NCBI GenBank assembly: GCA_944389505.1
Contig: CALXMP010000002.1
Coordinates: 1 to 64,000, forward strand
Direction of reading: 5' to 3'
Length of the DNA stretch: 64,000 bases
Source: an uncultured Spirochaetaceae bacterium
GTDB lineage: Bacteria > Spirochaetota > Spirochaetia > Sphaerochaetales > Sphaerochaetaceae
A program made the position numbers and the translations under genes. Shown piece after piece: positions 19,814 through 21,822 of the stretch. Position 1 is the first letter of the stretch, and every line of letters begins with the position of its first letter. The notes beneath the pieces were generated by a model. That model worked only from the letters and a program-made list of their open reading frames with translations. It had not been told where the DNA came from and searched no databases.

Positions 19814-20041
19814 TTTCTATACCCCTTTAGGCATGCAGAAATCCACCATCTCTGGTGGTAGCATGCCGTATAAGCTATGTGAAAGGTTAGGCTAGAGTAA
19901 TACCCCCCCCCGTGCTGGGAAGTTATGAAATAATTAAATTGCTTAACTGATAACACATTTTTCATAATTAGCCTGAAAAAATACTAGCATACTTCTTTTT
20001 CCGAATCAATTCATAACTCCGTGATTTAAAGAAAAATACAC
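19814..20041 (-). promoter_or_regulatory. Upstream region of the lipoprotein gene with hairpin and G9 tract
   Basis: Read on the minus strand, TTGATT (reverse complement at 20004-20009), a 17-base spacer and TAGTAT (19981-19986) form a plausible promoter. A run of nine G (C9 at 19903-19911) lies downstream of it, directly before TATTAC, a possible alternative -10. A two-tier hairpin follows (GGCATGC/GCATGCC at 19830-19836 and 19861-19867; CCACC/GGTGG at 19843-19847 and 19854-19858), then the SD AAAGGGG. The long leader and slippable tract suggest variable or structured control. Confidence 0.5.
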
Positions 20042-20334
20042 TGAGCCCGTAAGTCAGGAGACTGAATTACAGGGATGCAGTATCGATGGTAATCTTGGCT
20101 CGACGGAGTCGGGAGCCGGTGGCTATGCGAGGCGGTTTGTGAAGGACCCATCATGGATGGAGTCACTTCTGAAGAAAAATTACACAAGTCGCTGGTCATC
20201 GAAGTATCTTGTGAGGCTGCCTGTGCATGGTCATCCATGCCGGGCTGACCTCTGAAATAAAAGTGAGACAACATACTGCCAGACCTCTCAAATGACGCCT
20301 CCTGGACATCGTCAGACTACTTGGGGAGGTGTAT
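20042..20334 (+). ncRNA. Candidate bridge RNA region of the IS110 element
   Basis: IS110-branch elements encode a bridge RNA in the non-coding end upstream of the transposase, with two loops that pair with target and donor DNA. This stretch is rich in local hairpins: GGCTC/GAGCC with an inner GAC/GTC (20097-20117), CCATC/GATGG (20148-20160) and GCATGG/CCATGC with a TCAT loop (20225-20240). No reading frame explains it. The exact ends and loops cannot be set by eye. Confidence 0.35.
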
Positions 20335-21480
20335 ATGGCATACACTGATCATGAATGGCCAGCGATAATCGGGCTGGACCTCGGCAAGCAGACCTATTCG
20401 GGCTGCAGGCTTTCCGGGGAAGGATATGTGAAGAGGCACAACTTCACCGGGAAGATGACAAGAGGAGACGACGGCTATGCCTGTCTTCTTGAGAAGATCA
20501 GCGATGGGGATCTTGTAATCATGGAAGCGGGGAGCTCATCATTCAACCTTGCGCGATTCCTTATGAACAGCACGGAAGCTGAGATCATCGTACTAAATCC
20601 AGCACAGCTCAGGCTCATCTGGGATAGCCAGAGGAAGACTGACAAGGCGGATGCGATGAAGCTGGCATGCATAGGTCGGGACATGAGAAGGGAAGCATGG
20701 CAGACCGTATCGGTTCCAAGCGAGGATGAACAGGCTGAAAGATCTGCGGTATCCTTCCATGTGTTCCTGAAGGAGGATGAGACGGCCAAGTTCAACAGGC
20801 TGTTCGCACTCTTCAACAGCGTCGGCTATCCGGACATAGACAAGGGAAGATGCAAGAAGGACTTTGAATACAGACATGCACTTGCTGACAGCCTGCTCAC
20901 TGGTCAGGCGGCAGAAATTGCAAGGATACTGAACGATGGAATAGACCTTGTCCAGTTCCAGATCGAATCCGTGGAACAGGAACTCATCAGCATCTGCCTG
21001 GCCCATCCTCATGAGGCACTCTCCTGGCTCTCGATGCCTGGGGTCGGGCTTGTCAACGCGGCAACCCTAATCGCCTATGTCGGGGACGGCGCAAGGTTCT
21101 CAAAGCCTGAGCAGCTGATGAACTATGCAGGCCTTGTCCCCAGGCTCAATCAGAGCGGCATTACGGACATCCATGGGAAGGTGACAAAGATGGGCTGCAG
21201 ATGCGTGAGGAGGAACATTGTGCAGGGAGCAAGTACAATACTCACACACAAGTACAATCCGTCCTGTCCTCTCTCACGATTCGCTTATAGGAAGAAGAAG
21301 GAGCTGATCCATCATGGCAAGGCGGCTGTGGCAGTGGCCAACCATATGCTCAGGATAGGGCTTGCTCTCCTTCATCACCATGACATCTACTGCACAGCTA
21401 AGGAGGATGGCTGCGAGAAGCTGAAGACTAAGCTTGCTGGTTATAAACTAAGCGCCCTTGCCGCTTACCTTCCACAGTAA
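20335..21480 (+). CDS. IS110-family DEDD transposase
   Basis: A 381-residue recombinase. The N-terminal RuvC-like domain shows the acidic set D15 (GLDLGK), E64 (MEAGSS), D103 and D106 (KTDKADAMK). A helical middle follows, then the transposase_20 domain with SMPGVGLVNAATLIAYVGD, the YAGLVPRLNQSG segment holding the expected catalytic Ser, and GKVTKMGCRCVRRN. The frame is intact, so the copy may be active. The ATG at 20335 was chosen over a GTG two codons earlier because GGGGAGG lies at 20323-20329. Confidence 0.9.
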   Translation: MAYTDHEWPAIIGLDLGKQTYSGCRLSGEGYVKRHNFTGKMTRGDDGYACLLEKISDGDLVIMEAGSSSFNLARFLMNSTEAEIIVLNPAQLRLIWDSQRKTDKADAMKLACIGRDMRREAWQTVSVPSEDEQAERSAVSFHVFLKEDETAKFNRLFALFNSVGYPDIDKGRCKKDFEYRHALADSLLTGQAAEIARILNDGIDLVQFQIESVEQELISICLAHPHEALSWLSMPGVGLVNAATLIAYVGDGARFSKPEQLMNYAGLVPRLNQSGITDIHGKVTKMGCRCVRRNIVQGASTILTHKYNPSCPLSRFAYRKKKELIHHGKAAVAVANHMLRIGLALLHHHDIYCTAKEDGCEKLKTKLAGYKLSALAAYLPQ

Positions 21481-21493
21481 CCAAGGGCGCTTA
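21449..21493. terminator. 12-base inverted repeat over the transposase stop
   Basis: TAAGCGCCCTTG at 21449-21460 and its exact reverse complement at 21482-21493, with 21 bases between, span the transposase stop codon. It may be the transcription terminator of the transposase or a folded feature of the right end. There is no strong T-run. Confidence 0.5.
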
Positions 21494-21822
21494 CATATTA
21501 AGATTTCTTTCAAACCTTGTAATCCAAGGTTCATTTCTTCATGGCCATTTGTCAACCATTTGATTGGATATTGCTGTTTTTATTCCCATTATTGACTTAC
21601 GGGCTCAAATAAAAACCTTCTCGGAGTGGGTGTCTTGGATTCGGTATAAGATAAGACTGATTGGCTCCGGGAAGGAAAATGCATTTTTAGCACGTTGCGC
21701 TATGATTTGCACCATAGCAAGTACAGGCATAATTAATATAGGCAATTTTCATTCTTGACAAGGGCTATCTGTGTCGTTTTCGTGCATTTTCACGGATTTC
21801 TGCATGATAATCCCTCCCCTGA
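21481..21822. other. Intergenic stretch between transposase and ttcA
   Basis: Holds the second arm of the stop-codon hairpin, the right inverted repeat of the IS (21593-21607) and about 215 bases of AT-richer sequence. One imperfect stem (GCTATG/CATAGC around 21700-21720) is visible there. No supported gene or terminator was seen. Confidence 0.5.

Follow-up and report, generated by a model that had tools for sequence, protein, structure and literature searches.

The analysed window is a stretch of 64,000 nt from contig CALXMP010000002.1 of an uncultured Spirochaetaceae bacterium, and positions are those of this window. It contains at 20042-21607 an intact IS110-family element. The source organism is a gut spirochaete, and the nearest relatives of the element lie in metagenome-assembled genomes (MAGs) named uncultured Spirochaetales or Spirochaetaceae, as befits the spirochaete-like host proposed from the sequence beforehand.

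Element boundaries, transposase and related copies

The element and its gene were annotated as follows:

20037-21615, plus strand: whole element including one A-tract copy, from conserved junctions in all close copies and empty sites of related target loci
20042-20056, plus strand: left subterminal inverted repeat TGAGCCCGTAAGTCA
20335-21480, plus strand: IS110-family DEDD transposase, 381 aa from ATG (a GTG start at 20329 is also possible)
21593-21607, minus strand: right subterminal inverted repeat

The span of the whole element was counted as T20037 to T21610 plus AAAAA at 21611-21615. The inverted repeats are 15 nt long and 100% complementary. The original prediction took 20042 and 21607 as the ends; the repeats do lie there, but the element itself probably starts about 5 bases outside the left repeat (T at 20037) and ends at 21610. 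As A-tracts lie beyond both element ends, the repeats are subterminal.

The transposase reading frame is unbroken, matches PF01548 and PF02371, and scores 176 bits against NCBIfam NF033542 "IS110 family RNA-guided transposase" (cut-off 140). Residues D15, E64, D103 and D106 fall on the DEDD positions in an alignment with IS621 (PDB 8wt6), in agreement with the earlier reading of an intact enzyme with all four acids, and serine S274 sits within the motif GLVPRLNQSG. The protein thus combines a DEDD RuvC-like domain with a PF02371 C-terminal domain carrying G--P----SG, which places it in the IS110 family in the broad sense. The distance from the left repeat to the transposase ATG is 278 nt. The right non-coding end is 127 nt long and holds a conserved hairpin (AACCTTGTA--CCAAGGTT, within 21482-21592) that is kept in all close copies.

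The genome contains a second full-length copy (locus L026), 79% identical, on a different contig. Spirochaete genomes yielded about 40 related loci, the close relatives being in other MAGs of uncultured Spirochaetales and Spirochaetaceae; a search of viral contigs returned distant relatives only. Every copy with a resolvable left end includes the structured stretch upstream of the transposase, so that the ends of other copies do not exclude it from the element. A run of nine C stands slightly upstream of both copies in this genome (window 19904-19912; left flank of L026; TACCCCCCCCC) and could be a phase-variable tract, or chance. To the left of the L033 copy, GTATGCTCCAC...GTGGAGATG units recur at intervals of about 70 nt and may be the end of a CRISPR array.

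A covarying fold upstream of the transposase

A scan of the whole window against Rfam gave nothing at curated thresholds and, in the RNA region, only chance hits at relaxed E. Since Rfam was without a matching family, a covariance model (R1) was built from relatives, using the alignment and fold of 12 close left ends. The following features were placed with it:

20074-20280, plus strand: core of the candidate bridge RNA (model R1)
20093-20114, plus strand: constant hairpin with a GACGGA loop, also found upstream of the ISLin1 transposase gene
20141-20169, plus strand: variable hairpin at the apex of the target loop, with compensatory changes
20213-20252, plus strand: hairpin of the second (donor) arm, with compensatory changes

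The model matched 29 of 139 genomes of the family and, in a draw of 395 genomes from the class, 20, of which two lie outside the family. Even in relatives with a transposase of just 35-60% identity, it located the same RNA directly in front of the gene. Most of the 41 RNA sequences precede a transposase match, which in intact cases starts 52-106 nt downstream, and several of those lacking one sit at contig ends or look decayed.

In the model alignment of these 41 sequences, 93.1% of cells pair and 44 of 56 pairs show double changes; no shuffle attained the observed values, and the slid controls dropped to 30-47%. Because such an alignment leans towards its model, 36 sequences were also aligned afresh on sequence only. 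This recovered the main helices; 26 of 42 pairs had double changes, and standard pairs made up 89%. At the level of sequence comparison, the consensus fold and its compensatory changes exceed chance, which bears out the description of the stretch before the transposase as hairpin-rich. A structured non-coding region that adjoins the transposase gene inside the element is what the fold and its conservation describe, as in elements with bridge or seeker RNAs.

Insertion site and target guides

Two short tracts mark the insertion point:

20032-20036, no strand: left A-tract copy, single in empty sites and on both sides in filled ones
21611-21615, no strand: right A-tract copy, from empty sites

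In close copies the left junction (marked ^) reads (A/G)AAAAT^ACACTGAGCCC and the right junction GGGCTCAAAT^AAAA, or nearly so in each case. More distant groups carry different repeats; their right end, where found, reads TTGAC...AAAT^AA, and their left ends begin after the A-run. No homologue of the element's own left flank was found when an empty site was sought with it, and empty sites were therefore taken from the right flank and from other copies. An empty relative of the right flank reads AAGAAAAACCTTCTC. The kind of target used by the second copy reads TTCACGAAAATAGCCGC when empty and TTCACGAAAAAT^ACAC ... CAAAT^AAAATAGCCGC when filled, and TTTAAAGAAAAACCTTCTC is an example of an A-tract target. 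Comparison of empty and filled sites therefore places the insertion point in an A-tract, of which an empty site has a single copy and a filled site one on each side.

The right flanks of the main group mostly run on into a terminator-like hairpin, and most of those in groups B and C do not. The proposal that all targets are terminators was rejected, as it fits most of the main group but fails for groups B and C; random 60-mers from the same loci often fold as well. An A-tract before such a hairpin, as often found in the main group, should be a fairly harmless landing site.

Two repeats were noted at the occupied sites. The right flank at 21611-21690 belongs to a dispersed element of about 80 nt, AAAAACCTTCTCGGAG...GGTATAAGAT...CTCCGGGAAGGAAATGCATTTTT, of which this genome and others of the genus contain several copies (L121-L127; about 79% identical); the copies scanned had no Rfam match, and the repeat looks like a structured RNA or a REP-like repeat. 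The second copy, L026, is inserted in a cassette of about 230 nt that is repeated across many genomes of the genus (L137-L144). This cassette, whose ends are GGCACTGCC / GGCAGTGCC, combines a hairpin with a short hydrophobic reading frame that has a strong ribosome-binding site, and resembles a type I toxin-antitoxin locus.

Both target guides are held in one internal loop between the conserved stem and the variable apical hairpin:

20131-20140, plus strand: right target guide GGCGGTTTGT, formed by the 5' strand of the loop; its complement is the top strand to the right of the insertion
20172-20180, plus strand: left target guide AAGAAAAAT, formed by the 3' strand of the loop; the left flank at 20029-20037 has the same sequence

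To test the guides, the 3' loop strand of each copy was scored against the left flank of that copy, and the 5' strand against the right flank in reverse complement; flanks permuted among copies gave the null. For the left guide (33 copies) the score was 7.48 with own flanks and 5.92 with permuted flanks (sd 0.16), a value attained in 0 of 20,000 permutations; restricting the permutations to groups, or to the main group, again gave 0 of 20,000. For the right guide (18 copies) the scores were 6.00 and 4.47, with 0 of 20,000 permutations overall, 3 of 20,000 when flanks were exchanged only inside groups, and 67 of 20,000 for the main group by itself (7 copies). Five other strand pairings and senses gave null results in the same test. 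Each side of the target thus has one guide strand, and the two correspond to opposite DNA strands. Matches noted earlier by eye, GAAAAATTACAC and AAATAAAA, both in top-strand sense, had hinted at an odd geometry with a minus-strand RNA; permutation ruled this out, the true pair being the 3' and 5' strands of a single loop in opposite senses.

Targets are A-rich, so an A-run forms part of every match, guides and flanks alike being dominated by A-runs, and the right guide of this element pairs over only 5 bases (GGTTT/AAACC). The matches could on these grounds be an artefact of A-rich targets, or of flanking DNA captured at insertion. Permutation among copies retains the A-runs, yet it never attains the observed left score, and matches of mixed letters exist: GATTGAAAAT (L089), CCAAGAAAT (L095), TCTGCTTT (L037) and GCGGGTTT (L035). 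Capture, moreover, would not place one side as a reverse complement inside a conserved loop. An artefact of either kind is accordingly considered highly improbable. The stretch might alternatively be a structured untranslated leader that regulates the transposase, as an attenuator or translation block, and plays no part in target choice. Its position directly before the gene and its strong structure would suit such a leader, which nevertheless gives no reason for two strands to change with the left and right flanks of each copy in the right senses, and this explanation is thought very unlikely. A guide RNA made from the right end, as in IS1111 elements, with the upstream structure serving as something else, would agree with a right end of 127 nt with its hairpin and with the IS1111-like repeats; the covariation of guide and flank was found in the left end, the end scanned for guides, and we give this arrangement almost no credence.

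Guides and flanks match poorly in L082, L084, L034 and L042; such a mismatch is to be expected once guide or flank has changed, which may be the case in these copies. L033 and L034 have left ends that are nearly identical except for a swapped target loop, and appear to show natural retargeting in the wild.

The computed evidence strongly supports the bridge-RNA interpretation, and the candidate put forward originally is upheld by the covarying fold together with both strands of target guide, which are loop sequences matching the flanks as had been sought. The RNA most probably chooses where the element lands, and we consider it very likely that the stretch encodes the bridge (seeker) RNA of an IS110-family element that selects the insertion target.

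Two candidates for donor guides flank the hairpin of the second arm:

20204-20210, plus strand: candidate right donor guide GTATCTT, suggestive only
20255-20262, plus strand: candidate left donor guide AAATAAAA, the same as the right end CAAAT^AAAA and shared by almost all groups

The former, the 5' stretch of the arm, agrees with the joined ends AAAATAC and changes along with them from group to group, but only at 34 of 720 permutations. The latter, the 3' stretch, varies too little for a covariation test. Both are candidates, and the evidence for them is suggestive only.

Predicted circle junction, proposed mechanism and relation to known systems

A promoter may be formed when the two ends are joined:

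20037-20042, plus strand: TACACT, putative -10 box of a joined-ends promoter, with an 18-nt spacer from the right-end TTGACT
21592-21597, plus strand: TTGACT, putative -35 box of the circle-junction promoter, with TTGAC conserved in all groups

Joined ends would here give TTGACT-18-TACACT, and in other groups TTGAC(A/T)-16 to 19-TA---T, the pattern being present in five groups. In groups B and C, comparison of the ends places TTGACA beyond the stretch over which the repeats match, and the repeat alone therefore does not explain its conservation. A promoter at joined ends is documented for ISEc21 (PMC11187229). By these signals, the RNA would be transcribed from the circle here as well.

In the mechanism proposed, the excised circle would join the right-end TTGACT to the left-end TACACT, with the expected junction CGGGCTCAAATAAAAATACACTGAGCCC, and the resulting promoter would switch on transcription across the RNA and the transposase gene. 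The transposase would bind the RNA, the target loop would pair to the left of the A-tract with the bottom strand and to its right with the top strand, and the second arm would pair with the joined ends. The DEDD/serine recombinase would then exchange strands in the A-tract and insert the element, which would end up with an A-run at either side.

Two papers of 2024 introduced the guide RNAs of this family, under the names bridge RNA (PMC11208160) and seeker RNA (PMC11187229). Most IS110-group elements have the RNA upstream. ISEc21 has its top-strand match 3' of its bottom-strand match (PMC11187229), and inverted repeats in this group are either missing or no longer than 2-3 bp (PMC11208160). 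In the IS1111 group the RNA is usually downstream of the transposase gene, the top-strand match lies 5' of the bottom-strand match, and transposases have 330-350 aa (PMC11187229); subterminal inverted repeats measure 7-17 bp (PMC11208160).

The present element resembles IS621 and ISEc21 of the IS110 group in its DEDD transposase, the RNA upstream of the gene, the internal target loop with two guide strands and the promoter expected at the joined ends, but differs in its 15-bp repeats and in a guide order opposite to that of ISEc21, the right guide (20131-20140) preceding the left (20172-20180) with null controls. It resembles IS4321, ISPa11 and ISEc11 of the IS1111 group in having the top-strand guide 5' of the bottom-strand guide and subterminal repeats in the 7-17 bp range, but differs in guides that lie upstream of the transposase gene and in a transposase of 381 aa. 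The original prediction that a guide from such a host would extend the known set holds but was understated, since the guide order is that of IS1111 although the RNA is upstream as in IS110. Bridge and seeker RNAs have been known since 2024, and what distinguishes this element is the IS1111 guide order and 15-bp repeats combined with an upstream RNA; characterised elements with the RNA at this end have their guides the other way round. A small number of IS1111 elements have been reported to carry an upstream region, and a deep IS110 branch to contain two exceptions (PMC11187229), so other elements may share the combination; the papers found give no account of guide order in these cases.

The two founding papers (PMC11208160, PMC11187229) link guide order, repeat length and RNA position to the two groups. 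The element uncouples the first two from the third, which is testable as to how the recombinase reads its RNA, and bears on how the IS110 and IS1111 groups parted. We lean slightly towards a spirochaete-centred lineage of bridge-RNA elements that includes ISLin1 and belongs to neither group, with upstream RNA, IS1111-type guide order and long repeats. If such a lineage is real, the order of the guides would follow the type of repeat, not the end at which the RNA lies, and the lineage could mark an intermediate in the move of the RNA between element ends.

In a transposase tree (L094 disregarded) with few references and weak deep nodes, the protein falls outside the clade of IS4321, ISYen1, IS5708 and ISShdy1 and groups with ISLin1 (support 0.93). 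ISLin1, an IS110-family element of Leptospira, is the best named transposase match among plasmid records, at 29-32% identity. Its upstream stretch matches the RNA covariance model weakly (11.2 bits, E 0.066) and contains the same constant hairpin, CTTGAATCGACGGAGTCAAG, followed by GGCCGGTGG.
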